From positions 124,001 through 188,000 of the forward strand of contig JAPJBO010000235.1 in the NCBI GenBank assembly GCA_030068145.1: a DNA stretch of 64,000 bases, read 5' to 3'. This document shows, one piece after another, positions 1-64,000 of the stretch. Within the stretch, counting starts at the first letter, position 1. Each line of letters opens with the position of its first letter. This DNA comes from Diplonema papillatum (taxonomy: Eukaryota; Euglenozoa; Diplonemea; Diplonemida; Diplonemidae). The position numbers and the translations under genes are program-made. The notes below the pieces were generated by a model. It saw only the letters and a list, made by a program, of their open reading frames with translations. It was not told the DNA's origin and made no database searches.

Positions 1-2961
1 ACGCGGGTGAACAGCGAGTTGCGCGCGGAGGCCGGAACATCGCGGGAGACACCGGCGGAAACGCACGACGAGGGCATGGGTCGCTCGAGTAGTGCAGTCT
101 ACGCCTCGATGCAACGAGAAAAACTCGAGTTGGAGCAGAAGGTGGGCGACTTAACGCGGGAGAACAACGAGCTGCGCGCGTCGGTCGGGAGACCAGAGGA
201 GGCGGATAAGCAACACGGCGAGGGCACTGACCGCTCCAGCAGTGCGGGCTACGCCTCGTTGCAACACGAAAAACTCGAGTTGGAGCAGAAAGTGCGCGAC
301 TTAACGCGGGAGAACAGCGAGTTGCGCGCATCGGCTGGAGCGGTACGGGAGAGATCAGAGAAGGACCACCCCCCCAGCAGTGCGGGCTACGCCTCGTTGC
401 AACACGAAAAACTCGAGTTGGAGCAGAAGGTGCGCGACTTAACGCGGGAGAACAGCGAGTTGCGCGCATCGGCCGTGGCACCCCCACAGGATCGACCGGA
501 GGAGGCGAACGCCACCGCGAGCGAGGGACCGACACCGTCACTCGAAGCCCTGCGGGAGAGAATTGAGCAGGCCGTCGCAGAAAAGGCCGCCAACACGCAG
601 AACAACGAACGCGGGGCCTCAGCAGAGGGAAGCGGCGAGCAGCGGCAGCCGGCATCGGAGCCCGTCGGCGACCGAGCGCGGGAAAACAGCGCACCGAAAG
701 CCTCCTCCGACGGGGCGCAGTCGGCCGCTGATTGGTCGGCAACACTCTCCGACCTCACCGCGGCGAACGAAGAACTGCGCGCGAAGGTCCAGGAGTTCGA
801 AGCGAGCGGTGAAAACTCCGCTTTGCGAAGACAGATTGAAGACCTCACCGCGGCTAACGCAGAGCTGCGAAAGAGCGTCGATCAACCCGATGCTGGAACA
901 AGCGGTGAAAAGTCTGTTTTGGAAAGAAAAGTCGAAGACCTCACCGCGGCGAACGACGAGCTGTGGGCGAAAGTTCAGGAGCTCGAAGCGAGCAGTGAAA
1001 CCACCGCTTTGCGAAGACAGGTCGAAGACCTGGCGACGGCGAACGCCGAGTTGCGAAAGAACGTCGATCAACCCGATGCCGAAAACAGTGGCGAAACGTC
1101 CGCTTTGGAAAGACAGATCGAAGACCTCACCGCGGCGAACGACGAACTACGGGCGAAAGTTCAGGAGTTCGAAGCGGGCGGCGAACACTCCGCTTTGCGA
1201 AGCCAGGTCGAAGACCTGGCGGCGGCGAACGCAGAGTTGCGAAAGAGGGTCGATCAACCCGACGACGACACAGCCGGCGAAAAGCTCGCGTTGGAAAGAA
1301 AGGTCGAAGACCTCACCGCGGCGAACGACGCATTGCGAGCGAAGGCCGCGCAGCTCGAAACGAGCAACGACCGGTCGATCTTGGAGAGAACGGTCAACTC
1401 GCTCACGCAAGAGAAATACGCGCTGGCGGCCTCGGCCGGAACCTTGCGCGAACGCATCGGGCAGCTCGAGGAGAGCGAGGAGCACATCATGCGCGAGAAG
1501 CGCGGCGCCGAGCAGACCGTGCAGGACCTCACCCGCTCCATCGGCCAGCTGCGGGGCAGGAACAGGGTCCTCGAGGAGAACCTCACCGCGGACGTCGACC
1601 GGCTCTTCGGCCGCGACGACGAGACGGGGTTCAAACAGCGCATCGGAGACCTGCTGAGGGTCCACCGGGAGCTCGAGGACTCCCTGGAAGACCTCAGGGG
1701 CATCGCAAAGCAGTCGGCCGGCCCCGCCGAAGAACTCGCCCCCGACCAGCCCGAGCTGCAAGAGCAGGCTTCGAGCGTGCTCACCCAAGTGCAAGCGATC
1801 GCACACTCCATGCCGAAGGCCACCTCAGCCGATCCCGCGGCTGATGATCAAGGTCAAGCTCTGCGAACCCTGGAAGCCACCGCGGCGGCGCTCTTCATGA
1901 GCCTGAAGGCTGGAGGCGGTTCTTGGGCGCGTGACCAGGATTCAGCCGTGCGCGCCGTGCGTGCGGAAAAAGACGCGCTCGAAAAGGAACTCGCCGAGTA
2001 CCGGCACAAGACGCGCCTGCTGGAAGCCGTCGCGGCGGCGGCGGACGGGCCGTCTGCGGCCAAGGGGGGTGCGCAGGCGCGGGACACGGTAGACAACTTG
2101 ATGCTGCTCGTGAGGGAGAAGACGGAGTCCCTCGAGGAGACGTCCGGCTGCCTGTGCAGGGCGAAGGCGGAGGTCGTCGACTTGAAGACAGCGGTCGCCG
2201 TCGCGCGGGAAGAGCGGGAGTCGCTGGAGCACAAGCTGGCGGACGCCGAGCGAAGGGAGGGCGCAGCGCAGCGACAATCCGCCGAGCTCGCGGCTGCGGC
2301 GGCAGAGCAAGCAGCAGCCGACGCGGAGCACCAGCTGCGGAGCGAGCTGGTGGCGGTCCGGAGGGAAAAGAACGAACTCGCCGCTGAGTTGGAACGGCTG
2401 CAAGGCGTTGTCGCCACGCTCTCGGTGCGCGATGCCGCCCCGGCGGCAGACCTCGCCGACAAACTGAGAGAAGCTGAAGAAGAGCTCGGTCTACTCCGCG
2501 CGAAGGCGGCGTGCATCCCCGCCCTGGAGACAGAAACCGCCGCGAAAACCGCGGAAGTGCTCCGGCTGCGCTCCGCCCAGTGGAGCGGGGAAGGAGACGA
2601 AGGCGACCTGGCAGCCCGCATCGAGAAGCTCGAGTCCGCCAACGCGCTCGTTGCGGCAAAGCTCAGCGACGCAGAAGGCCGGCTTCAAGAGCAGAGAGCT
2701 GAAAAAGCAGACATCGCCGTTGACAGGCAGCGTCTCGAGCGGGAGTTGGAGGAGCAGCAGCGCGAGAAAGCCAAGGTCATCGACGACAAGCAGCGTCTCG
2801 AGCGCGAGTTGGAGGAACAGCAGCGCGAGAAAGCGACAGTCATCGGCGACAAACAGCGGCTCTCCCGCGAGCTCAGCGAAGCGGTACGAAAACTAGGCGC
2901 TGCAGCCTTCTCCAACGACTCGTTCGAGTTCTCGCAGTCCGAGAGCGAAGAAGTCTCCTAG
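1..2961 (+). CDS. Long coiled-coil protein, 5'-partial
   Basis: The frame is already open at base 1 and ends with TAG at 2959-2961, giving at least 986 residues; the true start lies upstream, because the first codons already sit inside a repeat. The protein is almost wholly charged heptad-type coiled coil. Residues about 36-155 hold three copies of a block with the core EKLELEQKVRDLTRENSELR. Residues about 251-465 hold alternating 30- and 32-residue units beginning DLTAAN or DLAAAN, a 62-residue (186-bp) higher-order repeat in about 3.5 copies. Later segments are Ala/Glu/Arg-rich, with a short repeat LERELEEQQREKA near residue 915. The acidic Ser-rich end is SNDSFEFSQSESEEVS. No motor, ATPase or membrane segment is visible. 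I infer a structural or scaffolding role; the family is not identified. Antisense and frame-shifted open frames over it follow from its repeats and high GC3. Confidence 0.85.
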   Translation, partial: TRVNSELRAEAGTSRETPAETHDEGMGRSSSAVYASMQREKLELEQKVGDLTRENNELRASVGRPEEADKQHGEGTDRSSSAGYASLQHEKLELEQKVRDLTRENSELRASAGAVRERSEKDHPPSSAGYASLQHEKLELEQKVRDLTRENSELRASAVAPPQDRPEEANATASEGPTPSLEALRERIEQAVAEKAANTQNNERGASAEGSGEQRQPASEPVGDRARENSAPKASSDGAQSAADWSATLSDLTAANEELRAKVQEFEASGENSALRRQIEDLTAANAELRKSVDQPDAGTSGEKSVLERKVEDLTAANDELWAKVQELEASSETTALRRQVEDLATANAELRKNVDQPDAENSGETSALERQIEDLTAANDELRAKVQEFEAGGEHSALRSQVEDLAAANAELRKRVDQPDDDTAGEKLALERKVEDLTAANDALRAKAAQLETSNDRSILERTVNSLTQEKYALAASAGTLRERIGQLEESEEHIMREKRGAEQTVQDLTRSIGQLRGRNRVLEENLTADVDRLFGRDDETGFKQRIGDLLRVHRELEDSLEDLRGIAKQSAGPAEELAPDQPELQEQASSVLTQVQAIAHSMPKATSADPAADDQGQALRTLEATAAALFMSLKAGGGSWARDQDSAVRAVRAEKDALEKELAEYRHKTRLLEAVAAAADGPSAAKGGAQARDTVDNLMLLVREKTESLEETSGCLCRAKAEVVDLKTAVAVAREERESLEHKLADAERREGAAQRQSAELAAAAAEQAAADAEHQLRSELVAVRREKNELAAELERLQGVVATLSVRDAAPAADLADKLREAEEELGLLRAKAACIPALETETAAKTAEVLRLRSAQWSGEGDEGDLAARIEKLESANALVAAKLSDAEGRLQEQRAEKADIAVDRQRLERELEEQQREKAKVIDDKQRLERELEEQQREKATVIGDKQRLSRELSEAVRKLGAAAFSNDSFEFSQSESEEVS

Positions 2962-3160
2962 TTGTCTCGCGCGGGTTCCTATTTTCTGGAACTTGAATCT
3001 GAAAGTGAATGCAGCTGTACAGGACGGCAAGCCAGACCTGACAGCCTGCAACTGCACTGCAGACTCACTGGCTGCGGCAAAGCTCAGCAGCGCCGAAGAA
3101 AACGCTGGCGTCGCCATCGACGACACACAGCGACTCTACCGGTCAGCACAGTGGCGCGGA
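2962..3160 (+). pseudogene. Decayed copy of the coiled-coil gene tail
   Basis: Just after the stop codon a stretch reads SLAAAKLSSAEE followed by AGVAIDDTQRLYR. This matches ALVAAKLSDAEGR and ADIAVDRQRLER near the C-terminus of the preceding protein. Nearly the same DNA recurs at 33686-33890, including the lead-in TCGCGCGGGTTCCTATTTTC. It is read as a partial internal duplication of the 3' coding end, now non-coding or 3' UTR. Confidence 0.6.
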
Positions 3161-4917
3161 ATATCGGTGTAATAGTTCAGAACGAACAAGCGCTTTCGCT
3201 GTTGCCCCAAAGCAGGTGTTCATCGTGAATGAGAAAGAATGGAATAACAAGGGATCGACTCCTGCACGTTCTCTTGTAGTGAGAACGCAGAAATGATGTT
3301 TCTGCGTTTCCAAACGAAGGTGTCTGTTGGCTCCGTCTACCAACCGTCCCTCGTGGTTGCACCCGTTGGTATTATGAAACCTTTCTGGCCGCAGCCGCAA
3401 GTCCTCCTTAGAACCTTACTCCAAGAGTCAAGGTCAAAACGCAACCCGTCACCGAGAGCACTAGATTTCATGGCTCTCGCTGACACTCTGTATTATAGCC
3501 GTTGTTGATCTTTTCTGTTGCTTGGCAAACCATGTTTATCGCCCTGAGTTTATTGTTTCAAATAGCAACAAGGGGTTTCCTAGGAAGCACTCGCGGTCCG
3601 CGCAGATGGATTAAAGGACCGAAACACGGCTCAGGTTGAGCACATACTTCAGACTCTCCCTAGAAACCCTATAGACAATTCAACCACAAGCGTTTTTTAC
3701 GAGCCAATTCCTATCTAACCTGTAGTATGTCGCGACCGACCGAATTCCTTGGTGTTAATTCCATCTGTGCATCGTGGATTCCAGCCTCAGAAGCCGGCGA
3801 AATCTTGCAAAGTAGATGGGAGGCGGGGCAAGGTCGCGTCGCTGTGTGTCCGCATCATTACACCGATGTCAGCCCGCTCGTTCCGCCGCCGTTTCTGGCA
3901 GTGATTAAAACGAGACCGGTCACCCCCCTCCACCCGTCGAACGGCACTCTTTCTGTCAATGCCTCGGGCTTGCACGCTTACACCCTGCACTAGCCCCAGA
4001 TTAACCTGAGCTTTGCGCGTGGTCACAGCACGTTTCCACCTTGGCATCCCGGGCTCTTTGTTGCGTAAGTAGTTTTGTCTTTTAACACCGCGAGCCGATG
4101 CCTCTCGTCTCACCTTTCATATAGCATTCCACGGTTGTGCCACGCTTGCTCTTGATATTGCGCAATGCGTTTCACTGCCGTTGGGTGGTATTGACGAGGG
4201 GGGTTCACCTCGAACACTCGAGCGAGCTCCTTCCGGGCAGAGGGAAACCTTCGGGGGGAGAATACCCCGCCAGTCGCGCCCTGTCGCGTGCATTTCTTGC
4301 CTGGCGCTTCTCTCTCATGAATGCAGAAACCGGCCTTTTTTGCTTACTATTTCATTCCGGCTGTACTTCCTTAAGCTTGATACCGAGGTAGACCCATGAC
4401 CTCGGAGAGAGGAACGGGCAGACACCATTCGTCAAACCGAGCCAATCAGTACAGCGACCCGAGGCAGTGGATACGACCAGGTTGATTTATCAACACTGGC
4501 ACCATAATACAACAACCAGCGAACAGTGCATGTCCTCTGCTTTCACGACACTTGCACATTTTTGCACCCAATGCCGTCCCTGACCACATAGAAAAAGGGC
4601 ACCTCACCATTCTTGTCGGCGAGCCTACCGAAGGAGGACACGGAGTGTGGCGCAGAGGAGACAAAGCGTTTTAAAACAACTGCGATACGAAAGTGAGCGG
4701 TGACAACACGCATCCGCGTATAGCCAGCGTGGCTTTCATCACCGTCATCGTTGGCTCAGTCTTCGGTTGTCAAGCAGCACTCCCCGGCAGTGCATGTTTT
4801 CTAGCTCTCAATGCCACCCCTATCTGCTCTTGGCGATGAGAAGTCTCCCTCTTGGCCCGTCCACAATGCAGAACTCAGGTGTTTTTGACAAACACGTACC
4901 AACACCACCCCGCCCTG
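3161..4917. other. Intergenic stretch, no gene recognised
   Basis: Only short open frames without coding character are present. There is no recognisable repeat apart from the tail relic to its left. It separates the coiled-coil gene from the PLA2-like gene. Confidence 0.5.
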
Positions 4918-42339: not shown

Positions 42340-42628
42340 GGGCGCAACCATGCGCAACTATGCGCAACAGCCCAAAGAACTATGCGCAACTATGCGCAAG
42401 TATACGGAACGACCCGAAAGTATGCGGAACAGCCCAAAACAACTATGCGCAACTATGCGGAACTACCCGAAAGTATGCGGAACAGCCCAAAAAACTATGC
42501 GCAACTGACCCGAAATTATGCGGAACAGCCCAAAACAACTATGCGCAACTATGCGCAACTATGCGCAATTATGCGGAACGACCCGAAAGTATGCGGAACA
42601 GCCCAAAAAACTATGCGCAACTATGCGG
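42340..42628 (+). repeat. 10-bp-modular satellite, + orientation, left block
   Basis: Modules AACTATGCGC, AAGTATGCGG, AACGACCCGA and AACAGCCCAA follow one another. The array is cut at 42628/42629 by the retrotransposon and resumes at 47318. Confidence 0.9.
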
Positions 42629-42779
42629 GAATGCTTTGTGCGCTTCACTCGGTGACAGTGATAAGTTCAATGATAATGAACGCGAAAGGAAGAAAATTAA
42701 ACGAATTGCACTTACGATGGGGTAACCCCCCGAGATAGCCGCTGAATGGTGAGAGAAACAGGCTAGCCCAGGAGGTCAC
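42629..42779 (-). repeat. Split direct repeat B2 of the YR retrotransposon
   Basis: A 151-bp unit from GAATGCTTTGTGCGCTTCAC to CCCAGGAGGTCAC, the 3' terminus of the element on the minus strand. It matches B1. Confidence 0.9.
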
Positions 42780-42871
42780 GGGGGACGGAGGGCGGGAACC
42801 CAGGTCCCCTGGACCTCGCGCTGAACGCGGACACGAAAAACAAGACAAGCAAACCGGTGTGGGTGGGTGGG

Positions 42872-42964
42872 AACTTTTGTTGTCTGATTCCTTTGAATCC
42901 GGTGCCCAACACCTTCCTAGAGAGTGGTTCGTTACGCGCTTAGCATTCCCACGATGAATCGACA
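42872..42964 (-). repeat. Split direct repeat A2 of the YR retrotransposon
   Basis: A 93-bp unit from AACTTTTGTTGTCTGATTCC to CGATGAATCGACA, matching A1 at 47225-47317. It abuts B1 directly. Confidence 0.9.
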
Positions 42965-43115
42965 GAATGCTTTGTGCGCTTCACTCGGTGACAGTGATAA
43001 GTTCAATGATAATGAACGCGAAAGGAAGAAAATTAAACGAATTGCACTTACGATGGGGTAACCCCCCGAGATAGCCGCTGAATGGTGAGAGAAACAGGCT
43101 AGCCCAGGAGGTCAC
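42965..43115 (-). repeat. Split direct repeat B1 of the YR retrotransposon
   Basis: A 151-bp copy of B2. The RT-RNase H stop codon (43114-43112) lies at its inner edge. Confidence 0.9.
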
Positions 43116-44752
43116 ACCACCAAACCCATATCGCCAGTCAGGAACTGCCTAACTGCAAGTGCCATGTCGGCCATATTCTTATCGGAAATTGCCGATAACG
43201 GAACCCGTGACGGAAGGTCAGCAGGATTCCCGGCGCTTTTTACCCAGCGCACAGATAAGGAAATGTTCATGTGGCGCAGGCGTGTGAGCCCGTTCACCAC
43301 GGCATCGTTCAAAGTCTGCGATCGCAGACATGCCCCTTTCCGAGCAACACCCTGCACCGTCGTGTTGTCGACCACGACGGTGACCGTGCCGCCCGCGTAC
43401 TTGTCAGGCACTGCCGACACACAAAGTTCAAATGCAAGGGCCTCCAGCTCGTTGATGTGAAGGCCCTTTTCTTTCCTGGACCACCGCGAGCCCAGAACTT
43501 CGATCGCGTTGGTGGCGACGTCAACCAGCACGCCGCCCCATCCCTCGAGACTTGCGTCCACAAACACGGTGAGCGACGGCACCCGGGCCGTCACTGGCAT
43601 TCTTCGCTTCTCCAACACCGCGCGAACCCAGCCGTCGAGTAGCCGCTGCACACTACCCGAGAGGCGAACCGTCTGGTCGACGGCCTTCTCGCCCCGGTTC
43701 AGCGCATTCGTCAACCGGCGAAGAAACTTCAAGGCGAAGTAGAACTCGCCGACGAAAACACCCACGATGGCCGACGCGTGCAGCAACCGACCACCCAGCG
43801 TCTCCAGACCGGACGCGGACATCGCACCCTTGCGCACCTCTACCAGATCCCGTGCCAATTTCTTCGACAACCTTGCCGAAATGCCGACCTTCCCGCTCTG
43901 GTGGTCCCAGTCCACCCCGATAAACTCGTACCGGGTGCTGGCGGTTCTCGTGTCGGCGTCCTTCCACGTAACCTTCGAACGAGCTGCCAATTCGTCGACC
44001 TTGCGGGACGCCTCGAGCACGTCTTTCCGGGACCCCGCGTAACGCACGTTGTCGACCCACGTGTGCACCGTCACAGCCGCTGGCACCGCATGCGCCGTCT
44101 TAACGAAATCGGGGTGCCCGGCGATCGTCGAAGTCAACGTGTGCATCAATTCCGGTGCACACGTGTGGCCCATCGGCAGGCGGGTGAGTTCCCACCAATC
44201 GCCTGCGTCGTCCTGGAAGCGAAAGGCATCCCGTGCCCCCCGCGGAACTTCTACGCCGTAAAAACCGCAGCGGAGGTCGCGTGTCGAGCCACACTCCGCG
44301 TGCACCGCGTCGAGGTACGTGCTGACGTGCTTCAGCGGTACCTGGGCCTCGTAGCCATCCGCCTCGATCGCGTCGTTCGCTTCGTGCGTCCACAAAATAA
44401 AACGTTGGCGCAGAGCGCCTTCCTTTTCCTCCACCACAGTGAAGGGGACGTTGACCGACCTACCCGGGCCGCTAGCCCGTTGCGCAATGCCGTTCATCTC
44501 CAGCTCCTCCGCATGCTTCGCTTGCAGCCGCGAAACCCGTCGAGAAGAAGACGGCCGCAATTTCGCCACATCAAACGTCCGCCGCCACGTCTCATCGAAC
44601 CTGGCCCGCGTCGTCTCGTTCATACGCCCACGCAACAGCCCCACGTTCATGGGTCGCACGTTGTCGACGTGCAACGGCGAAGCCTTCTCGTCCTCCGTCT
44701 TCGGTAGGCGCGTCTGTTTGCCGCGCTTGAACACCGAGTGGTGCTGCCGCAT
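43112..44752 (-). CDS. Reverse transcriptase-RNase H of the YR retrotransposon
   Basis: 546 residues from the first ATG after the recombinase stop; the same frame is open far upstream, so frameshift expression cannot be excluded. RT motif A is RDLRCGFYGVEVP (D159) and motif B is RLPMGHTCAPELMH (192-205). Motif C is HTWVDNVRYAG with D234-N235 where YxDD is usual. FIGVDWDHQSGKVGIS follows. The RNase H domain has LTVFVDASLEGWGG (D399), HINELEALAFEL (E435), VVVDNTTVQG (D462) and NPADLPSR (D512), the complete D-E-D-D set. It would copy the element RNA to DNA and remove the RNA strand. It ends within B1. Family level: DIRS/Ngaro-type RT-RH. Confidence 0.85.
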   Translation of the reverse strand: MRQHHSVFKRGKQTRLPKTEDEKASPLHVDNVRPMNVGLLRGRMNETTRARFDETWRRTFDVAKLRPSSSRRVSRLQAKHAEELEMNGIAQRASGPGRSVNVPFTVVEEKEGALRQRFILWTHEANDAIEADGYEAQVPLKHVSTYLDAVHAECGSTRDLRCGFYGVEVPRGARDAFRFQDDAGDWWELTRLPMGHTCAPELMHTLTSTIAGHPDFVKTAHAVPAAVTVHTWVDNVRYAGSRKDVLEASRKVDELAARSKVTWKDADTRTASTRYEFIGVDWDHQSGKVGISARLSKKLARDLVEVRKGAMSASGLETLGGRLLHASAIVGVFVGEFYFALKFLRRLTNALNRGEKAVDQTVRLSGSVQRLLDGWVRAVLEKRRMPVTARVPSLTVFVDASLEGWGGVLVDVATNAIEVLGSRWSRKEKGLHINELEALAFELCVSAVPDKYAGGTVTVVVDNTTVQGVARKGACLRSQTLNDAVVNGLTRLRHMNISLSVRWVKSAGNPADLPSRVPLSAISDKNMADMALAVRQFLTGDMGLVV

Positions 44753-44790
44753 GAACCGTCTCGGATCATCGTGGCCCCGCTTCCGGCCCT

Positions 44791-46092
44791 TCACAGGTGT
44801 TCGGTCACCTCCGCCGTTCTCAACACGCGCGCCAGTGCCACCACATCCGATGTGTACCGCACCGTCATTTGAGCCAGCGTCGGGTCGACGTTGTCGGCGG
44901 TGTGTTTCGCCAAGCGCGAAATCAGGTGCTCGGGAAATGGAGCCCCCGCCGCTTTCGCGCACACGAGGTGGTCGACCGCCCCTCGTTTGATGCTGTGCGC
45001 CGAGTACCGGCACATCCGCGGTTCGCGCGCCCACATCCCGTCGAGCTGCGACGTTGTCACCGGCGTCAGCGGGCTGAAATTCCCTGCGCCACGTACCAAC
45101 GCCGCGATCTCCTCCGTCAACGCCCCGCGAATCACTGCTGTTTTGCTCAGACAATACGGGTTTCTGGAACGCCCCTTCGGAAGCGTTCCCCAGTCGATGA
45201 TCACCTCCGTGGTGCTCACCAGCACAAAACACGGGCGCGTCAACAGTCTCACCTCCGCCCAGCGCGACGCCGTCTTCCACGCCACGAACGCTGCCAAACG
45301 CAGGTGCGGCACCTGCCGCCTCGCCCACGAAATCAGCGTCTCCCTCGGGATACCCTCCGCCTGGGACAGGGGGATAGACGCCCCATCCCCACGAAGCACC
45401 GACGCCAGCACCTTCAACGGCTTGCTGTCCACCCCCATATGGCCAAAAACTGCCGAAAGGAGGCGGGAATACCCCAACATCCCCTGGGGTTCCACTGACG
45501 TTGCCACAACAAAAAGCACAGCCACATCCGGGTTGAGGCCCAGTCCACGCCCACTGGCCCACGCCTGGAACCGGCGCCACATATTGCGCCGGTCGTCCAC
45601 CGTAGAACTCGCCCATGCCCGACCAACTGCCTGCTGCAAACGGCGGTGCGCCTCCGCCACCGACACCCCATTCTCCTTGTGTCTCGCCGCAAGAGCCCGG
45701 GAAATCCCCACGCCCGTCTTCGACGCCACCAACTCGTGGATCGCCTGCCCGATGACTGAGGCTGCGCGCGCCGACGGTTTCAGCACGTCTGCTACCCCGA
45801 GCGAGGATGCGGGAAACTGCGAAGAGTTGGTTCTCCCGCTCTCGCGTGAAGGGCCGGTGGTCGGGTTCTGATCGGACCGGTCGCTCGGGAGAAGATGGTC
45901 CGCGTCTAGGGCGCGCCGAACGGCCGCCAAAACCGTCTCGGTCTCCACTTCGAGAGGAACTCTGTGGTTGGTGCGGGGAGGGGCCGGCGGCACCGTGACT
46001 GCCGCGGGGGTGGGAGGATTGAATAAAAGAGGGGGAGGAAGAATAACTGGCCGTGCAGGGGTAGCCCCGCTTACTTGCCGGGGGAACGCCAG
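44791..46092 (-). CDS. Tyrosine recombinase, probably made by stop-codon readthrough from Gag
   Basis: 433 codons open directly after the Gag UGA and in the same frame; there is no ATG until about 170 codons in, past much of the N-terminal domain. The catalytic set is visible: Arg in TASRWAEVRLL, the HSIKRGAVDHL box, His in RLAKHTADNVD and the nucleophile Tyr in MTVRYTSDVVAL. The usual HxxR reads HSIK followed by R. It would integrate a circular DNA copy without target duplication, which fits the seamless junctions. The linker after the stop is Pro-rich (ILPPPLLFNPPTP). Ends at TGA 44793-44791; the RT frame overlaps its end. Confidence 0.8.
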   Translation of the reverse strand: MAFPRQVSGATPARPVILPPPLLFNPPTPAAVTVPPAPPRTNHRVPLEVETETVLAAVRRALDADHLLPSDRSDQNPTTGPSRESGRTNSSQFPASSLGVADVLKPSARAASVIGQAIHELVASKTGVGISRALAARHKENGVSVAEAHRRLQQAVGRAWASSTVDDRRNMWRRFQAWASGRGLGLNPDVAVLFVVATSVEPQGMLGYSRLLSAVFGHMGVDSKPLKVLASVLRGDGASIPLSQAEGIPRETLISWARRQVPHLRLAAFVAWKTASRWAEVRLLTRPCFVLVSTTEVIIDWGTLPKGRSRNPYCLSKTAVIRGALTEEIAALVRGAGNFSPLTPVTTSQLDGMWAREPRMCRYSAHSIKRGAVDHLVCAKAAGAPFPEHLISRLAKHTADNVDPTLAQMTVRYTSDVVALARVLRTAEVTEHL

Positions 46093-47202
46093 TCACTTCC
46101 CCCCGTAACCGTTTCCCTGACCATACCAAGACTTGCCCCCTTTTCCGCCTTTGCCTTTCTTCCAAGCAGGCGTCGCGTTCCACTTTGGCGTCCTGTTCTT
46201 CTCCTTCTCCAGGTCCCCTTTGACCTTCGCCATCAACCGCTCGACCAAGTCGCCGGACTCGGCTTCCATTTCCCGTAGCATCCGGGACCGCGGGACCTTC
46301 TCCACGCACCATCCGTAGTTGAGGCGGACATCCAGCAACAGCTCGTTGCCCAGCCGGACCAGCTCTTCGTTGGCCGACCACCCCGCCGACCCGGCTGCGA
46401 CCCCAAGGATCCACGTCTTCAGCTTCTCGAAGCTCGCCTTCAAGAACGCGCCCCCCGGGGCTCCGACGTACCCAGCCACGTACTCCGAATGGAGGTCGCG
46501 AACAAGCCCGTGCGGGTCGGACGCCGCAACATCCGCCCACTCGCGGACATCCTTCAGACTGTACCGCACGGGCAGCGCGTAATGTGCTGCCGCCCCCTCA
46601 AAGGCAGCAGCCGACAGGTTGGCCGCCGGTAGCCCCGAAAGCCGTCCGTGTAGCGAGGCGATCTCCGCCTTCTGCTGCTCCACCACTGCGTACAGGTCCT
46701 TGACCAACGCGGCTAGGCCCCCGCTCGCGTCCACGGACGCCCCAGCAACAGGGGGCGGAGGGAGAACCGGTGGCGCCACCGGCTCAATGGGATCGGCCTC
46801 GGCGTCCCTCCGCTCCGCCTCGGCCCACATGCGGCACGCGGGCACGCCTTCCTTCCAGCATCCACTCGCCTTCATCACGCGTCGAAACAATGGGCCGTTC
46901 GTGACCCCGACCTCCGCCAGCACAGCAATGAGCTTCCAAGGCTCCCAGGACTCTACGAAGCCTAAGCCCTCCGAGGCAGCCGCAAACTCGAAAACTTCGC
47001 ACGCAACCTTGCGCGCCAACGCAACGGCGTCTCCGGCACCCCCAAAGAAGAACACGGCCCACCTCTCTAACTCCGGCAGGTTCACGGTGCGGCGAGGAAG
47101 GACGGGTCCTACCGCATCTTCGAACGCACTGCGGATATCCGCCGGCACCGCGAACGTGGTGTATCCAGTGGTCGTCGCCTTTCGGAAGGGGCTTGCTGCC
47201 AT
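46093..47202 (-). CDS. Gag-like protein of the YR retrotransposon
   Basis: 369 residues from MAASPFRKATTTG; an in-frame ATG at 47265 lies within repeat A1 and is less likely. Its first ORF position, Pro-rich hinge (VAPPVLPPPPVAG, about residue 145), helical segment VVEQQKAEIASLHGRL and very basic Gly-rich end (KKGKGGKGGKSWYG) fit a nucleocapsid-type protein. No zinc knuckle is present. It stops at TGA 46095-46093 followed by CTG, and the frame stays open beyond into the recombinase. Confidence 0.7.
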   Translation of the reverse strand: MAASPFRKATTTGYTTFAVPADIRSAFEDAVGPVLPRRTVNLPELERWAVFFFGGAGDAVALARKVACEVFEFAAASEGLGFVESWEPWKLIAVLAEVGVTNGPLFRRVMKASGCWKEGVPACRMWAEAERRDAEADPIEPVAPPVLPPPPVAGASVDASGGLAALVKDLYAVVEQQKAEIASLHGRLSGLPAANLSAAAFEGAAAHYALPVRYSLKDVREWADVAASDPHGLVRDLHSEYVAGYVGAPGGAFLKASFEKLKTWILGVAAGSAGWSANEELVRLGNELLLDVRLNYGWCVEKVPRSRMLREMEAESGDLVERLMAKVKGDLEKEKNRTPKWNATPAWKKGKGGKGGKSWYGQGNGYGGK

Positions 47203-47224
47203 GTTTTCTTTAACTTGCGTAACA

Positions 47225-47317
47225 AACTTTTGTTGTCTGATTCCTTTGAATCCGGTGCCCAACACCTTCCTAGAGAGTGGTTCGTTACGCGCTTAGCATT
47301 CCCACGATGAATCGACA
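47225..47317 (-). repeat. Split direct repeat A1, 5' end of the YR retrotransposon
   Basis: A 93-bp unit matching A2. Its outer edge joins the satellite module AACGACCCGA at 47318. The Gag start lies 23 bases inside its inner edge. Confidence 0.9.
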
Positions 47318-48076
47318 AACGACCCGAAGGTATGCGGAACAGCCCAAAACAACTATGCGCAACTATGCGCAACTATGCGCAAGTATGCGGAACGACCCGA
47401 AAGTATGCGGAACTGCCCAAAGAACTATGCGCAACTATGCGGAACGACCCGAAAGTATGCGGAACAGCCCAAAACAACTATGCGCAACTATGCGCAACTA
47501 TGCGCAAGTATGCGGAACGACCCGAAAGTATGCGGAACAGCCCAAAACAACTATGCGCAACTATGCGCAACTATGCGCAAGTATGCGGAACGACCCGAAA
47601 GTATGCGGAACAGCCCAAAAAACTATGCGCAACTATGCGGAACGACCCGAAAGTATGCGGAACAGCCCAAAACAACTATGCGCAACTATGCGCAACTATG
47701 CGCAAGTATGCGGAACGACCCGAAAGTATGCGGAACAGCCCAAAACAACTATGCGCAACTATGCGCAACTATGCGCAAGTATGCGGAACGACCCGAAAGT
47801 ATGCGGAACAGCCCAAAAAACTATGCGCAACTATGCGCAACTATGCGGAACGACCCGAAAGTATGCGGAACAGCCCAAAACAACTATGCGCAACTATGCG
47901 CAACTATGCGGAACGACCCGAAAGTATGCGGAACAGCCCAAAACAACTATGCGCAACTATGCGCAAGTATGCGGAACGACCCGAAAGTATGCGGAACAGC
48001 CCAAAACAACTATGCGCAACTATGCGGAACGACCCGAAAGTATGCGGAACAGCCCAAATAACTATGCGCAACTATA
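47318..48076 (+). repeat. 10-bp-modular satellite, + orientation, right block
   Basis: Continuation of the array cut at 42628. All three plus frames stay open and encode the same peptide words (MRNYAQLCA, ERPESMRNSPK), because each module shifts the frame by one. It is not taken as coding. Confidence 0.9.
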
Positions 48077-48241
48077 CCGGTTTGGTGGTGTGACCTCCTG
48101 GGCTAGCCTGGTTCTCTCACCATTCAGCGGCTATCTCGGGGGGTTACCCCCATCGTAAGTGCAATTCATGTTGTTTTCTTCCTTTGGCGTTCAATTCATT
48201 GTCAGTCAAGATCGTCACCGAGTGAAGCGCACAAAGCATTC
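48077..48241 (+). mobile_element. 3'-terminal fragment of a second YR retrotransposon copy
   Basis: It reads the last codons of the RT ORF (GLVV stop) followed by a diverged B repeat (48090-48241) ending GCATTC, in plus orientation. It abuts inverted satellite at 48242. The rest of the element is missing. Confidence 0.75.
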
Positions 48242-59719: not shown

Positions 59720-62700
59720 ATGTCATTTACGTTCAGGATGATCGTGAACAAAGTTATGCTGAAACAAGGAAAGATGGCAGCGGAAGCCGCACCAGTCCTC
59801 TCCCATATAGCACTGGGCGCTTACGAGCAGTGCATGGCGGGATTGCCGCGGCTGTTTAATAATACGGTGACCACGTCAGCAACGCCGGTGGCCCGTCGTT
59901 TTGGCGCGGCTGTGATGCAAAACGGAGCCAGTCGCCCAGCCAGCTGCCCAGCCAGCTGCCCAGCCAGCCACCCAGCCAGTCGCCCAGCCAGCTGCCCAGC
60001 CAGCTGCCCACAGCCAGTCGCCCAGCCAGCTGCCCAGCCAGGCACCCAGCCAGTCGCCCAGCCAGCTGCCCAGCCAGGCACCCAGCCAGCTGCCCAGCCA
60101 GTCGCCCAGCCAGCCACCCAGCCAGTCGCCCAGCCAGCTGCCCAGCCAGGCACCCAGCCAGTCGCCCAGCCAGCTGCCCAGCCAGGCACCCAGCCAGTCG
60201 CCCAGCCAGCTGCCCAGCCAGGCACCCAGCCAGTCGCCCAGCCAGCTGCCCAGCCAGGCACCCAGCCAGTCGCCCAGCCAGCTGCCCAGCCAGCTGCCCA
60301 GCCAGGCACCCAGCCAGTCGCCCAGCCAGCTGCCCAGCCAGCTGCCCAGCCAGCTGCCCAGCCAGCTGCCCAGCCAGGCACCCAGCCAGTCGCCCAGCCA
60401 GCTGCCCAGCCAGCTGCCCACAGCCAGTCGCCCAGCCAGCTGCCCAGCCAGGCACCCAGCCAGTCGCCCAGCCAGCTGCCCAGCCAGCACCCAGCCAGTC
60501 GCCCAGCCAGTCGCCCAGCCAGGCACCCAGCCAGTCGCCCAGCCAGCTGCCCAGCCAGGCACCCAGCCAGTCGCCCAGCCAGCTGCCCAGCCAGGCACCC
60601 AGCCAGTCGCCCAGCCAGCTGCCCAGCCAGGCACCCAGCCAGTCGCCCAGCCAGCTGCCCAGCCAGCTGCCCAGCCAGGCACCCAGCCAGTCGCCCAGCC
60701 AGCTGCCCAGCCAGCTGCCCAGCCAGCTGCCCAGCCAGCTGCCCAGCCAGCTGCCCAGCCAGCACCCAGCCAGTCGCCCAGCCAGCTGCCCAGCCAGCTG
60801 CCCAGCCAGCTGCCCAGCCAGCTGCCCAGCCAGCTGCCCAGCCAGCTGCCCAGCCAGCTGCCCAGCCAGCCACCCAGCCAGTCGCCCAGCCAGCTGCCCA
60901 GCCAGCTGCCCAGCCAGTCGCCCAGCCAGCTGCCCAGCCAGGCACCCAGCCAGTCGCCCAGCCAGCTGCCCAGCCAGCACCCAGCCAGTCGCCCAGCCAG
61001 CTGCCCAGCCAGGCACCCAGCCAGTCGCCCAGCCAGCGCCCAGCCAGCTGCCCAGCCAGCTGCCCAGCCAGCTGCCCAGCCAGCTGCCCAGCCAGCACCC
61101 AGCCAGTCGCCCAGCCAGCTGCCCAGCCAGCTGCCCACAGCCAGTCGCCCAGCCAGCTGCCCAGCCAGGCACCCAGCCAGTCGCCCAGCCAGCTGCCCAG
61201 CCAGGCACCCAGCCAGTCGCCCAGCCAGCTGCCCAGCCAGGCACCCAGCCAGTCGCCCAGCCAGCTGCCCAGCCAGCTGCCCAGCCAGGCACCCAGCCAG
61301 TCGCCCAGCCAGCTGCCCAGCCAGCTGCCCAGCCAGGCACCCAGCCAGTCGCCCAGCCAGCTGCCCAGCCAGCTGCCCAGCCAGCTGCCCAGCCAGCTGC
61401 CCAGCCAGCTGCCCAGCCAGCTGCCCAGCCAGCTGCCCAGCCAGCCACCCAGCCAGTCGCCCAGCCAGCTGCCCAGCCAGCTGCCCACAGCCAGTCGCCC
61501 AGCCAGCTGCCCAGCCAGGCACCCAGCCAGTCGCCCAGCCAGGCACCCAGCCAGTCGCCCAGCCAGCTGCCCAGCCAGTCGCCCAGCCAGCTGCCCAGCC
61601 AGCTGCCCAGCCAGCCACCCAGCCAGTCGCCCAGCCAGCTGCCCAGCCAGCTGCCCACAGCCAGTCGCCCAGCCAGCTGCCCAGCCAGGCACCCAGCCAG
61701 TCGCCCAGCCAGCTGCCCAGCCAGGCACCCAGCCAGTCGCCCAGCCAGCTGCCCAGCCAGCTGCCCAGCCAGCCACCCAGCCAGTCGCCCAGCCAGCTGC
61801 CCAGCCAGGCACCCAGCCAGTCGCCCAGCCAGCTGCCCAGCCAGGCACCCAGCCAGTCGCCCAGCCAGCTGCCCAGCCAGGCACCCAGCCAGTCGCCCAG
61901 CCAGTCGCCCAGCCAGCCGCCCAGCCAGTCGCCCAGCCAGCTGCCCAGCCAGGCACCCAGCCAGTCGCCCAGCCAGCTGCCCAGCCAGGCACCCAGCCAG
62001 TCGCCCAGCCAGCTGCCCAGCCAGGCACCCAGCCAGTCGCCCAGCCAGCTGCCCAGCCAGGCACCCAGCCAGGCACCCAGCCAGGCACCAGCCAGCTGCC
62101 CAGCCAGCTGCCCAGCCAGCTGCCCAGCCAGCTGCCCAGCCAGCTGCCCAGCCAGCTGCCCAGCCAGCTGCCCAGCCAGCTGCCCAGCCAGCTGCCCAGC
62201 CAGCTGCCCAGCCAGCTGCCCAGCCAGCTGCCCAGCCAGGCACCCAGCCAGTCGCCCAGCCAGCTGCCCAGCCAGCTGCCCACAGCCAGTCGCCCAGCCA
62301 GCTGCCCAGCCAGGCACCCAGCCAGTCGCCCAGCCAGCTGCCCAGCCAGGCACCCAGCCAGTCGCCCAGCCAGCTGCCCAGCCAGGCACCCAGCCAGTCG
62401 CCCAGCCAGTCGCCCAGCCAGCCACCCAGCCAGTCGCCCAGCCAGCTGCCCAGCCAGGCACCCAGCCAGTCGCCCAGCCAGCTGCCCAGCCAGGCACCCA
62501 GCCAGTCGCCCAGCCAGCTGCCCAGCCAGGCACCCGGCCAGTCGCCCAGCCAGCTGCCCAGCCAGGCACCCAGCCAGTCGCCCAGCCAGCTGCCCAGCCA
62601 GGCACCCAGCCAGTCGCCCAGCCAGTCGCCCAGCCAGCCACCCAGCCAGTCGCCCAGCCAGCTGCCCAGCCAGGCACCCAGCCAGTCGCCCAGCCAGCTG

Positions 62701-64000
62701 CCCAGCCAGGCACCCAGCCAGTCACCCAGCCAGCTGCCCAGCCAGGCACCCGCCAGTCGCCCAGCCAGCTGCCCAGCCAGGCACCCAGCCAGTCGCCCAG
62801 CCAGCTGCCCAGCCAGGCACCCAGCCAGTCGCCCAGCCAGTCGCCCAGCCAGCCACCCAGCCAGTCGCCCAGCCAGCTGCCCAGCCAGGCACCCAGCCAG
62901 TCGCCCAGCCAGCTGCCCAGCCAGGCACCCAGCCAGTCGCCCAGCCAGCTGCCCAGCCAGGCACCCGGCCAGTCGCCCAGCCAGCTGCCCAGCCAGCTGC
63001 CCAGCCAGGCACCCAGCCAGTCGCCCAGCCAGCTGCCCAGCCAGCTGCCCAGCCAGGCACCCAGCCAGCTGCCCAGCCAGGCACCCAGCCAGTCGCCCAG
63101 CCAGCTGCCCAGCCAGCTGCCCAGCCAGCTGCCCAGCCAGCTGCCCAGCCAGCCACCCAGCCAGTCACCCAGCCAGCTGCCCAGCCAGGCACCCAGCCAG
63201 TCGCCCAGCCAGCTGCCCAGCCAGGCACCCAGCCAGTCGCCCAGCCAGTCGCCCAGCCAGCCACCCAGCCAGTCGCCCAGCCAGCTGCCCAGCCAGGCAC
63301 CCAGCCAGTCGCCCAGCCAGCTGCCCAGCCAGGCACCCAGCCAGTCGCCCAGCCAGCTGCCCAGCCAGGCACCCGGCCAGTCGCCCAGCCAGCTGCCCAG
63401 CCAGGCACCCAGCCAGTCGCCCAGCCAGCTGCCCAGCCAGGCACCCAGCCAGTCGCCCAGCCAGCTGCCCAGCCAGCTGCCCAGCCAGCTGCCCAGCCAG
63501 CTGCCCAGCCAGCTGCCCAGCCAGCTGCCCAGCCAGCTGCCCAGCCAGCTGCCCAGCCAGTCGCCCAGCCAGCTGCCCAGCCAGCTGCCCAGCCAGGCAC
63601 CCAGCCAGTCGCCCAGCCAGCTGCCCAGCCAGCTGCCCAGCCAGCTGCCCAGCCAGCTGCCCAGCCAGCTGCCCAGCCAGGCACCCAGCCAGTCGCCCAG
63701 CCAGCTGCCCAGCCAGGCACCCAGCCAGCCGGCCAGGACAATCCCCTTGTGAGCTGGTGGCAGGGAAAGGCCGAGGCGAGCCATCCAGTGCATCAGCCCA
63801 AGAAACGCAAGGTCGCTTGCACATTGGTCTCTTGCCAAGATGAGCATCACAGGTGGTCAGGAAGTACTGGAGGTGTTGGCAAGGCCAGTGTCTTTACCAC
63901 ACCCGAAATGGGTCCAAAGGGCCCCGTGCAGCGCGAACCACAACCGCAGTTGGGCTTGCGCGCAGAAAACGGGAGTTTGGCTCAAGAAAACGTCAGCGTC
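59720..64000 (+). CDS. Giant Gln/Pro/Ala/Ser tetrapeptide-repeat protein, 3'-partial
   Basis: One plus frame is open from the first ATG after a TGA at 59687-59689 to the last base, 1,427 codons, and has no stop in the window. In-frame ATGs at 59720, 59738, 59756 and 59774 are all possible starts; the last gives MAAEAAPVLSHIALGAYEQ. A unique N-terminal 50 residues (LPRLFNNTVTTSATPVARRF) is followed by about 1,270 residues from a 12-bp minisatellite, read as PASC/PASR, QPAA/QPGT/QPVA or PSQL/PSQS depending on local register. A unique C-terminal part follows: QDNPLVSWWQGKAEASHPVH, then the basic cluster PKKRKV, then TTPEMGPKGPVQREPQP, running off the edge. The basic cluster resembles a nuclear-localisation signal. 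Disordered protein; role unknown. The minus-strand WLGx frames are judged shadows. Confidence 0.6.
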   Translation, partial: MSFTFRMIVNKVMLKQGKMAAEAAPVLSHIALGAYEQCMAGLPRLFNNTVTTSATPVARRFGAAVMQNGASRPASCPASCPASHPASRPASCPASCPQPVAQPAAQPGTQPVAQPAAQPGTQPAAQPVAQPATQPVAQPAAQPGTQPVAQPAAQPGTQPVAQPAAQPGTQPVAQPAAQPGTQPVAQPAAQPAAQPGTQPVAQPAAQPAAQPAAQPAAQPGTQPVAQPAAQPAAHSQSPSQLPSQAPSQSPSQLPSQHPASRPASRPARHPASRPASCPARHPASRPASCPARHPASRPASCPARHPASRPASCPASCPARHPASRPASCPASCPASCPASCPASCPASTQPVAQPAAQPAAQPAAQPAAQPAAQPAAQPAAQPATQPVAQPAAQPAAQPVAQPAAQPGTQPVAQPAAQPAPSQSPSQLPSQAPSQSPSQRPASCPASCPASCPASCPASTQPVAQPAAQPAAHSQSPSQLPSQAPSQSPSQLPSQAPSQSPSQLPSQAPSQSPSQLPSQLPSQAPSQSPSQLPSQLPSQAPSQSPSQLPSQLPSQLPSQLPSQLPSQLPSQLPSQPPSQSPSQLPSQLPTASRPASCPARHPASRPARHPASRPASCPASRPASCPASCPASHPASRPASCPASCPQPVAQPAAQPGTQPVAQPAAQPGTQPVAQPAAQPAAQPATQPVAQPAAQPGTQPVAQPAAQPGTQPVAQPAAQPGTQPVAQPVAQPAAQPVAQPAAQPGTQPVAQPAAQPGTQPVAQPAAQPGTQPVAQPAAQPGTQPGTQPGTSQLPSQLPSQLPSQLPSQLPSQLPSQLPSQLPSQLPSQLPSQLPSQLPSQAPSQSPSQLPSQLPTASRPASCPARHPASRPASCPARHPASRPASCPARHPASRPASRPASHPASRPASCPARHPASRPASCPARHPASRPASCPARHPASRPASCPARHPASRPASCPARHPASRPASRPASHPASRPASCPARHPASRPASCPARHPASHPASCPARHPPVAQPAAQPGTQPVAQPAAQPGTQPVAQPVAQPATQPVAQPAAQPGTQPVAQPAAQPGTQPVAQPAAQPGTRPVAQPAAQPAAQPGTQPVAQPAAQPAAQPGTQPAAQPGTQPVAQPAAQPAAQPAAQPAAQPATQPVTQPAAQPGTQPVAQPAAQPGTQPVAQPVAQPATQPVAQPAAQPGTQPVAQPAAQPGTQPVAQPAAQPGTRPVAQPAAQPGTQPVAQPAAQPGTQPVAQPAAQPAAQPAAQPAAQPAAQPAAQPAAQPAAQPVAQPAAQPAAQPGTQPVAQPAAQPAAQPAAQPAAQPAAQPGTQPVAQPAAQPGTQPAGQDNPLVSWWQGKAEASHPVHQPKKRKVACTLVSCQDEHHRWSGSTGGVGKASVFTTPEMGPKGPVQREPQPQLGLRAENGSLAQENVSV
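59930..63728. repeat. 12-bp minisatellite, about 316 units
   Basis: Each unit is CCCAGCCAG plus a variable triplet, mainly CTG, TCG, GCA or CCA. Triplets follow higher-order patterns (CTG-GCA-TCG). Rare indels (for example CCCACAGCCAG and CCAGCACCCAG) shift the register. There is no TAA, TAG or TGA on the plus strand in any frame. Confidence 0.95.

Follow-up and report, generated by a model that had tools for sequence, protein, structure and literature searches.

Organization of the element

The window analysed here is a 64,000-nucleotide stretch of the genome of Diplonema papillatum, a marine relative of the trypanosomes, and at positions 42629-47317 it contains a tyrosine recombinase (YR) retrotransposon of 4,689 bp, coded on the minus strand and inserted seamlessly within a satellite. 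Its exact repeat ends, its junctions with the satellite, and the further end-to-end copies described below mark it as a complete VIPER-like element. Read in the coding orientation, it begins with the 5' terminal repeat A1 (93 bp; 47225..47317, minus strand), followed by the Gag, YR and reverse transcriptase/RNase H (RT/RH) regions, the repeats B1 (151 bp; 42965..43115) and A2 (93 bp; 42872..42964), a spacer (92 bp; 42780..42871) and the 3' terminal repeat B2 (151 bp; 42629..42779), all likewise on the minus strand. Repeat comparison gave 93/93 identical positions for the A pair and 151/151 for the B pair. The preliminary description had reported split direct repeats without differences within pairs, and its coordinates proved exact; its A and B labels had been read on the antisense strand, and the coding orientation yields the same formula, A1...B1A2...B2. 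The A2 repeat is further supported by matches to the BA junction elsewhere in the genome. The sequence of the B1|A2 junction is that of the product expected if the two ends of the element were joined. A1 carries two AG sites, A:51-52 (47267-47266) and A:80-81 (47238-47237), at which spliced-leader joints occur in the copies L033 and L021.

Satellite repeats adjoin the element both on the B2 side (42387..42628) and on the A1 side (47318..48075), and excising the element restores the satellite sequence, as was originally claimed for exact junctions without target duplication. The A1-side satellite ends at a second, truncated copy on the plus strand (48076..48241), which consists of the RT end and B, without A and without the tail, and is followed by satellite in the opposite orientation.

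Coding regions

The three coding regions first described are all open and all lie on the minus strand. The Gag-like ORF (46093..47202; 369 aa) ends in UGA and was assigned by its position and by one weak homologue, the Diplonema protein P0034 (28% over 320 aa). The protein gave no Pfam match and no CH-box was seen in it; a fold prediction was dropped (mean pLDDT 40). Gag and YR share one frame with this single UGA between them. The UGA-CUG at the border (46090..46095, minus strand) is a candidate stop-codon readthrough site, since TGACTG is kept in all 25 fetched copies in which the Gag/YR site was located. The first in-frame methionine of the YR ORF is residue 171, and UGA readthrough probably yields the recombinase as a Gag-YR fusion.

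The YR ORF (44791..46092, minus strand) comprises 433 codons. Its structure model matches Cre in fold comparison (E 3.6e-7), so that by predicted fold the protein is a Cre-type recombinase, and R277, H366, K369-R370, H397 and Y413 are invariant among 22 aligned sequences. In the recombinase motif the third residue past the catalytic H is R; here it is K, which counts against the explanation we prefer. Pfam recognized Phage_integrase in one of the 22 sequences (E 0.005), and a PDB sequence search with YR and RT returned nothing useful.

The RT/RH region (43112..44830, minus strand; first in-frame methionine at 44752) was identified as an ORF with Pfam matches, homologues and conserved motifs. 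Motif C reads D-N in 17 of 19 aligned sequences and D-G in the other two, and the RNase H residues D425, E463, D488 and D538 are invariant or nearly so. The reading frame stays open as far as 46597; this long frame overlapping YR gave four weak matches (about 26-31%), which an echo of the YR coding could equally yield. The RT protein P0004 of D. papillatum is 99% identical to that of the element over 95%. Other RT/RH homologues were found in Trypanosoma cruzi, T. theileri, T. grayi, T. melophagium, T. vivax and L. pyrrhocoris.

Insertion and target sites

Fifteen more end-to-end copies, with 98.4-99.5% identity, are present in the genome, including some that duplicate each other. When the two flanks of the element in the window are joined with the element left out, the resulting 26 bp are found twice elsewhere in the sequence compared, at zero offset only; joined flanks carrying a 1-12 bp duplication or a 1-12 bp deletion gave no match. 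The preliminary description had expected no target duplication at the junctions of other copies. This is borne out by 13 of 50 paired copies, which match an empty site at zero offset, and not by five, which match only at other offsets and lie within satellites; the remaining 32 have no comparison site. Six of the 13 match at zero offset only, one of these outside satellites. A natural non-satellite empty site was obtained by comparing L032 against L078. Insertion is thus seamless where comparison is possible.

Once duplicates had been strictly removed, the target preference R-R-T-T-N^Y-Y emerged from 50 left and 36 right non-satellite flanks, with C or T directly following B in 36/36 of the right-hand ones. 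The copy L033 is flanked on either side by TCCGCATA, perhaps a target duplication, perhaps the satellite's own repeat; this copy integrated although it has no complete A, and this too counts against the best explanation. That explanation is that the element is a member of the VIPER-like YR retrotransposons, inserted by its recombinase, in D. papillatum. We put its probability at about 0.9, a figure that covers identity and YR-mediated insertion; the rebuilding of the ends is graded separately below.

Truncated copies and spliced-leader joints

Among copies found through A itself or the BA junction, in all 35 that bear A and are cut inside the ORFs or B the breakpoint is variable and is joined to A within its final 11 nt, at A:83-93; 10 distinct ORF breakpoints are represented. 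The long capped copies retain the tail (A2-spacer-B2). In the open literature searched we found no description of capped truncation in recombinase-inserted retrotransposons. Cis-splicing was considered as an origin of these joints and rejected, as no consistent AG stands ahead of the printed body breakpoints (L042 is ambiguous by 2 nt).

In two long copies, L021 and L033, the host spliced leader, identified by comparison with its published sequence, is joined to A at the AG sites mentioned above. L021 in addition has its A:93 end joined to the first bases of the spliced leader. The pattern SL+ACAACAA occurs at four exact places, L021 and L122-L124; the latter three, like L125, a place with one mismatch and without element sequence, are retrocopies of another gene that carry the spliced leader. 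The second type of joint was found at one place, L033.

A proposed rebuilding of the ends

These joints suggest a route by which the ends could be restored. The element transcript would be trans-spliced within A1, so that the 5' part of A is lost from the mRNA, while the complete A2 near the 3' end would preserve the full A. On reverse transcription the cDNA end, wherever synthesis stopped, could be linked to a fixed end near A:93. Circularization of this product would create a B|A junction, which YR would recombine with a short, degenerate target sequence, leaving no duplication. The split direct repeats would then be a device for life in a trans-splicing host: the full A of the tail rebuilds the 5' end, any cDNA stop, including a spliced-leader 5' end, can be joined to the end near A:93, and truncated cDNAs become YR substrates that give seamless A-capped copies. 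We offer this proposal tentatively, at somewhat less than even odds. Our confidence in it was lowered slightly because of five long truncated copies without an A cap. When long copies were collected from their 3' side, in 37 regions around BA junctions, six distinct ORF-truncated copies proved to carry the cap and these five (L016, L018, L022, L035 and L038) to lack it, other DNA adjoining them directly; a second route therefore exists and the cap is not a general rule. A further copy, L020, lacks A:1-17.

The capped copies might instead be later genomic deletions in full-length copies, arising through microhomology between the end of A and internal sites, in which case they would be uninformative on reverse transcription. 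Overlaps of 1-4 nt at many joints, and a joint in L085 about 37 nt beyond A, are as a deletion would leave them. This account is nevertheless improbable in our judgement, since all 35 joints fall in A:83-93 even though A was searched by its first 34-46 nt, so that joints at 47-82 were detectable; under a uniform model the 10 distinct ORF breakpoints give about (11/47)^10 = 5e-7. Nor can deletion produce the joint of A:93 to the first bases of the spliced leader in L021.

Another reading makes A an independent, SINE-like RNA of 93 nt: template jumping would add the cDNA of this RNA, and the element would merely exploit it. Exact A 5' ends number 187 in the genome against 53 exact BA junctions, and 26 of 104 A contexts run into DNA without an element match and without a visible B (six of the 26 being one duplicated locus), A ending at 86-93 in 21 of them. 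Five A loci followed further (L046, L048, L054, L055 and L060) contain neither B nor any other part of the element over an additional 2.6 kb or so. The 26 contexts are left unexplained by the end-rebuilding model. Folded alone, A is predicted to form a terminal stem with a single-stranded 3' tail; the predicted fold differs in a 140-nt context, A has no Rfam match up to E 1, A1 equals A2 within most copies, and the solo A copies may be remnants. We regard an independent A as rather unlikely, a little less so than deletion.

The tail bears on the order of events. Tails on the long capped copies are not predicted by the simplest version of the end-rebuilding proposal, in which cDNA starts at A2:93, and they allow no choice between a template jump onto A RNA and a start at A2:93 with circle closure. 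It is conceivable that the tail is not copied with the element at all, and is a resident short unit beside which YR inserts tail-less circles. The genome does contain short A-spacer-B units, RT copies that lack the tail (L126 and L128, read without their 5' ends) and extra 336-bp units in L040, L041 and L042; in L036 the two B repeats are 7 edits apart, and across the 80 nt shown its B2 is identical to the one in the short unit L063. On the other hand B1 equals B2 in most tail-bearing copies, consistent with co-copying, and we consider a resident tail about as doubtful as an independent A. The end-rebuilding proposal remains the reading we favour for the capped copies.

Significance

A 2013 account (PMC3783388) described VIPER as "known only from kinetoplastida". 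A populous and nearly uniform diplonemid family extends the reach of the VIPER-like group beyond kinetoplastids. It supplies what kinetoplastid copies mostly lack: numerous young copies whose ends are intact, empty sites, forms with no tail or with a multiplied one, and remnants of processed RNA. New here are the target preference, the natural empty site, the tail-less copies, the short A-spacer-B units, the A-cap joints and the spliced-leader copies. Present understanding of how split-direct-repeat elements regenerate their ends is model-based; through the A-cap joints and the pair of spliced-leader copies it becomes testable in a laboratory organism.

Comparison with known elements

In Ngaro the recombinase is the last ORF, unlike the Diplonema element, in which YR precedes RT/RH. 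Ngaro and PAT share split direct repeats and YR with it (PMC4157794), and on this layout it could be read as Ngaro- or PAT-like and not VIPER-like. The position of YR ahead of RT/RH makes this very improbable, as do the named RT/RH homologues, which are all trypanosomatid or Diplonema proteins in a tree that contained no DIRS, PAT or Ngaro reference. A methyltransferase domain, which accompanies RT/RH in PAT and DIRS1, was not found by Pfam in the three proteins, a search that could miss a weak domain. In DIRS1-like elements the circle junction is mostly NTT and there is no target duplication (PMC3266345), and the Diplonema target likewise contains TT at its core; their terminal repeats are inverted and accompanied by internal complementary regions, whereas those of the Diplonema element are direct. 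Crypton has YR without RT, and the present element has RT/RH.

The preliminary description saw a pairing of PAT/Ngaro-type repeats with a Gag-YR-RT/RH order recalling VIPER/TATE. Both are present; the pairing is not new, since split direct repeats and this gene order are already the architecture described for VIPER/TATE (PMC6681497, PMC12278014). What we have is a new family member in a diplonemid, with a layout known from kinetoplastids. With VIPER of T. cruzi and Crithidia fasciculata, as described by Ribeiro et al. (2019, PMC6681497), it shares the order Gag-like, YR, RT/RH (Gag by position and a weak homologue), the split direct repeats with A1 at the 5' end and B1-A2-B2 at the 3' end, and a homologous RT/RH; VIPER/TATE RNase H is reported there as related to that of hepadnaviruses. 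The absence of target duplication stated for VIPER/TATE (PMC12278014) is found in the window copy, at zero offset only. VIPER has the short derivative SIRE (A2-B2; PMC6681497), and the Diplonema element likewise has short derivative units. It differs from VIPER in its diplonemid host, in the single frame shared by Gag and YR and interrupted by UGA-CUG, in a Gag in which no CH-box was seen, and in repeat length, A and B being 93 and 151 bp here versus 173 and 219 bp in T. cruzi VIPER (PMC6681497).

TATE of Leishmania and other kinetoplastids agrees with the element in gene order and in the layout of its repeats. Among the ORFs listed for the Diplonema genome (PMC10161547) are some resembling TATE, given without anatomy in the passages concerned. 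The database names of the RT/RH matches do not separate VIPER from TATE; those from T. cruzi should be VIPER, because TATE is reported as lost in most Trypanosoma (PMC6681497). As a difference from TATE, the insertions seen in Diplonema lie in satellites and in ordinary DNA; VIPER and TATE are not separable for this element with the sequences compared.

Structure and insertion of the element

Repeat search of the window, together with the positions of the open reading frames (ORFs), bore out the repeats, ends and coding regions of the preliminary description. The 151-nt repeat B (42629-42779 and 42965-43115) and the 93-nt repeat A (42872-42964 and 47225-47317) are each 100% identical between their two copies. 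Since all three coding regions lie on the minus strand, the coding order is A1-Gag-YR-RT/RH-B1A2-spacer-B2, with a spacer of 92 nt; nucleotide n of A is written A:n. The element had also been described as seamlessly inserted in a satellite, and this holds: the satellite is continuous once the element is removed, and only at zero offset does the joined 26 bp recur elsewhere in the sequence analyzed, in two places.

The sequence at the end of the Gag frame is GGG AAG UGA CUG, and the frame continues unshifted into the YR ORF. The first Met of YR, residue 171, lies within the conserved part. In other systems a UGA stop is leaky when CU follows it, and we infer readthrough of the stop codon at this border. 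TGACTG occurs in all 25 retrieved copies in which the Gag-YR site was found, which is weak evidence of constraint because these copies are nearly identical (about 99%) and include some duplicates.

Several other features of the window were recorded. The RT frame (43112-46597) is open for 1,161 codons and spans the entire YR ORF in a different frame. A second, truncated copy at 48076-48241 consists of the RT end plus B, without A or tail, and lies where the satellite flips orientation. A 3.8-kb array of a GC-rich 12/36-bp unit (59926-63736) falls within a minus-strand open frame of 1,324 codons, and a 984-codon open frame at 7-2961 has tandem repeats inside.

Copies in the genome and their target sites

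The genome searched totals 271 Mb over 2,910 contigs, against ca. 280 Mb for the published D. papillatum assembly (PMC10161547). Exact B1|A2 borders (BA junctions; 29-base pattern) were found at 53 places, exact B ends (36-base pattern) at 93 and exact A ends (34-base pattern) at 187; a 46-base A end with ≤3 mismatches gave 247. The A-end loci analyzed were drawn, for both the 187 and the 247 sets, from among the first 100 matches listed. Thirty-seven regions around BA junctions were chosen from a DNA search of the genome. Fifteen of these hold an end-to-end element, 98.4-99.5% identical to the window copy, and locus L033 carries 4,638 bp of it at 99.8%. Duplication, in the assembly or of segments, accounts for some of the copies, L010, L011 and L027 having common flanks.

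Judged by eye, satellite of the window type or a TGTAACC type flanks the copy on one or both sides in 31/37 regions, the others being L016, L024, L026, L031, L032 and L035. An initial profile was drawn from 59 non-satellite flanks on the left and 36 on the right; after stricter removal of satellite and duplicates the numbers were 50 and 36, with L091 entered twice in the right-hand set. On the coding strand, position -5 is A or G in 39/50 flanks and T in one, position -3 is T in 25, G in 20, C in four and A in one, and position -2 is T in 37/50. The first base after B is C (22/36) or T (14/36) and never A or G, and the second is C or T in 30/36; more distant flanks contain about 25% of each base. 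These counts indicate a target preference R-R-T-T-N^Y-Y, where ^ is the insertion point. The predicted circle junction, GCATTC^TGTC, has TT in common with the target, in agreement with DIRS1-like elements, in which the circle junction has NTT (PMC3266345).

Of the 50 A...B pairs that differ in their flanks, 13 have an empty-site match at zero offset, and for six of them no other offset matches (the window copy, L014, L025, L032, L037 and L068); five match at other offsets only (L009, L028, L034, L036 and L039), and 32 have no matching site for comparison. The non-satellite copy L032 has its empty site in L078 (contig C158), found by chance, in which the 26-bp join is exact and the surroundings are nearly identical.

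Truncated copies and A caps

Many shortened copies carry an A cap, that is, an A repeat joined directly to an internal breakpoint. The non-random sample of 71 short regions around listed A ends, plus five extensions, gave 104 distinct A contexts. Eighteen were classed as A plus gag leader, although L062 is misclassed and L085 departs from the leader after ca. 37 nt; in eight A2 lies behind B; 14 are A plus spacer, the counterpart of the T. cruzi SIRE; 35 are A plus part of a truncated ORF or of B; one has a spliced leader; and 28 had no element match by BLAST, although among these L050 proved to be B on inspection by eye and L093 a divergent gag that has a B end.

In all 35 truncated contexts A ends at nt 83-93 (93 in 15, 92 in five, 91 in eight, 90 in three, 89 in two, and 87 and 83 in one each), breakpoints before nt 46 being invisible because A was located by its first 34-46 nt. 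The joints have 0-4 nt of overlap as scored, and some contain filler. Since short copies form families, distinct breakpoints alone count as independent. Eleven breakpoints fall in ORFs, at ten distinct positions from 975 to 3050, one being common to L074 and L114; 11 lie within B; and 13 cluster at the RT end (element 4190-4207) with differing joints, representing either a hot spot or one family. A further 2.6 kb beyond the A plus YR piece of L046 contained no B or more element sequence.

In 26/104 contexts, including L040, L053, L054, L055, L067, L107 and L108, A leads into DNA lacking an element match, with no B seen, and in 21 of these 26 it ends at A:86-93.

The 37 BA-junction regions form a sample unselected for the cap. 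Here six distinct ORF breakpoints are capped (L014/L015, L026, L034, L041, L042 and L043) versus five uncapped (L016, L018, L022, L035 and L038), so that capping is frequent but not general. The uncapped long copies abut other DNA on the 5' side and are clean on the B side; L035 lies within a tandem repeat, where by eye just 2 nt are absent at the join. L030 and one L034 copy continue into an inverted copy, and L020 is without A:1-17.

Copies with a spliced leader

Virtually every D. papillatum mRNA reportedly bears a spliced leader of 39 nt (PMC10161547). L021 (contig C717) reads A:1-93, ACCAACGATTTAAAAGCTACAGTTTCTGTACTTTATTG, A:82-93, gag leader, so that a full A precedes the leader. In L033 (C176), which is without a complete A, that leader is joined at A:53 and satellite lies immediately upstream of it. 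The leader sequence equals a published 39-nt Euglenozoa spliced leader minus its first 1-2 bases (PMC3795323, in a table row without a species), and both joints directly follow AG in A; on these grounds trans-spliced mRNA is the source of at least two of the copies. The sample is small, two copies out of about 18 whose gag leader could be read. A variant of A found in many copies, GGAATCGGACAAC, is without the AG at A:80-81. The flanks of L033 have TCCGCATA in common, perhaps as a duplication, perhaps as part of the repeat of the satellite itself.

Retrocopies of another gene, with the spliced leader, occur at L122, L123 and L124, and suggest that reverse transcription in this genome acts on spliced mRNAs.

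Proposed mechanism

We propose that trans-splicing would remove A:1-52 or A:1-81 from the mRNA, a complete A being retained in every mRNA that extends to A2. An end near A:93 would then be joined to wherever the cDNA stopped: at the 5' end of the leader (L021), or at a point in the ORFs, the RT end or B. In a first version, cDNA would initiate near A2:93 and the circle would close by joining of both cDNA ends, which predicts tail-less copies. Four RT copies were checked because they lack an exact BA junction: two are tail-less (L126 and L128, 3' sides only), the tail of L127 is present but altered, and in L129 B is broken; L034 also contains a copy with a 3' side ending at A2:90. In a second version, the cDNA end would jump to the 3' end of an A template and proceed into B1, B1/B2 homology closing the circle; this would explain the tail kept by long capped copies. 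Each version fits parts of the data.

At L034 an A-end fold-back, AAC-AAAA-GTT followed by GTCTGATT, suggests a free end at the A end. The extra 336-bp units (L040, L041 and L042) and short A-spacer-B copies are consistent with YR exchange at B|A junctions. The uncapped copies and L033 would need a different 5'-side joining route.

Proteins

The closest RT protein is from D. papillatum itself (99% identity over 95%). Protein search gave 92 RT/RH relatives at E ≤ 0.01, and a second search, with a T. grayi protein heading the alignment, gave 29, including proteins of T. cruzi, T. theileri, T. melophagium, T. vivax and Leptomonas. A tree was built from 40 proteins picked from the matches, without DIRS, PAT or Ngaro references. 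In it, a branch with 100/100 support separates ten trypanosomatid rows from eight Diplonema rows, and the latter likewise fall on one side of a branch; this grouping leaves 22 unnamed rows uncounted, some of which sit inside, e.g. P0118 among the trypanosomatid rows. RT motif C has D-N in 17/19 aligned sequences and D-G in two.

YR had no Pfam match. Its AlphaFold2 model (22 aligned sequences; mean pLDDT 75, ≥90 in 210/433 residues) is closest to Cre-lox structures (E 3.6e-7; TM by target 0.54-0.60 among the ten best), and R277, H366, K369, R370, H397 and Y413 are invariant in 22/22 sequences. No known domain was found in Gag using Pfam.

Four VIPER-like RT/RH proteins (P0007, P0120, P0122 and P0127) are named TOR kinase 1, Rab1 or similar in the database, probably through misnaming carried over. 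A second RT family (78% identity) occupies 18 places in the genome, C20:407819-409531 and equal-scoring places, 14 of them within a 1,041-codon open frame. At 14 places (C1190, C1354, C1395 and others) a 459-codon open frame contains only RT residues 152-572 at 96-97%, and looks like a repeated chimera.

Comparison with known systems

The Diplonema genome paper reports >60 ORFs resembling proteins of DNA transposons, including TATE (PMC10161547); 'VIPER' and 'DIRS' are absent from its main text. In the open-licence literature we found no account of diplonemid YR retrotransposons like this family and no matching account of truncated split-direct-repeat elements. VIPER and TATE of kinetoplastids have the same gene order and repeat order as the Diplonema element (PMC6681497, the text of which has no mention of 'diplonem'). 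The VIPER/TATE group is thus already known, while the anatomy of the Diplonema family appears undescribed in the open-licence papers searched. What is new is the anatomy of the copies, which informs how such elements rebuild their ends.
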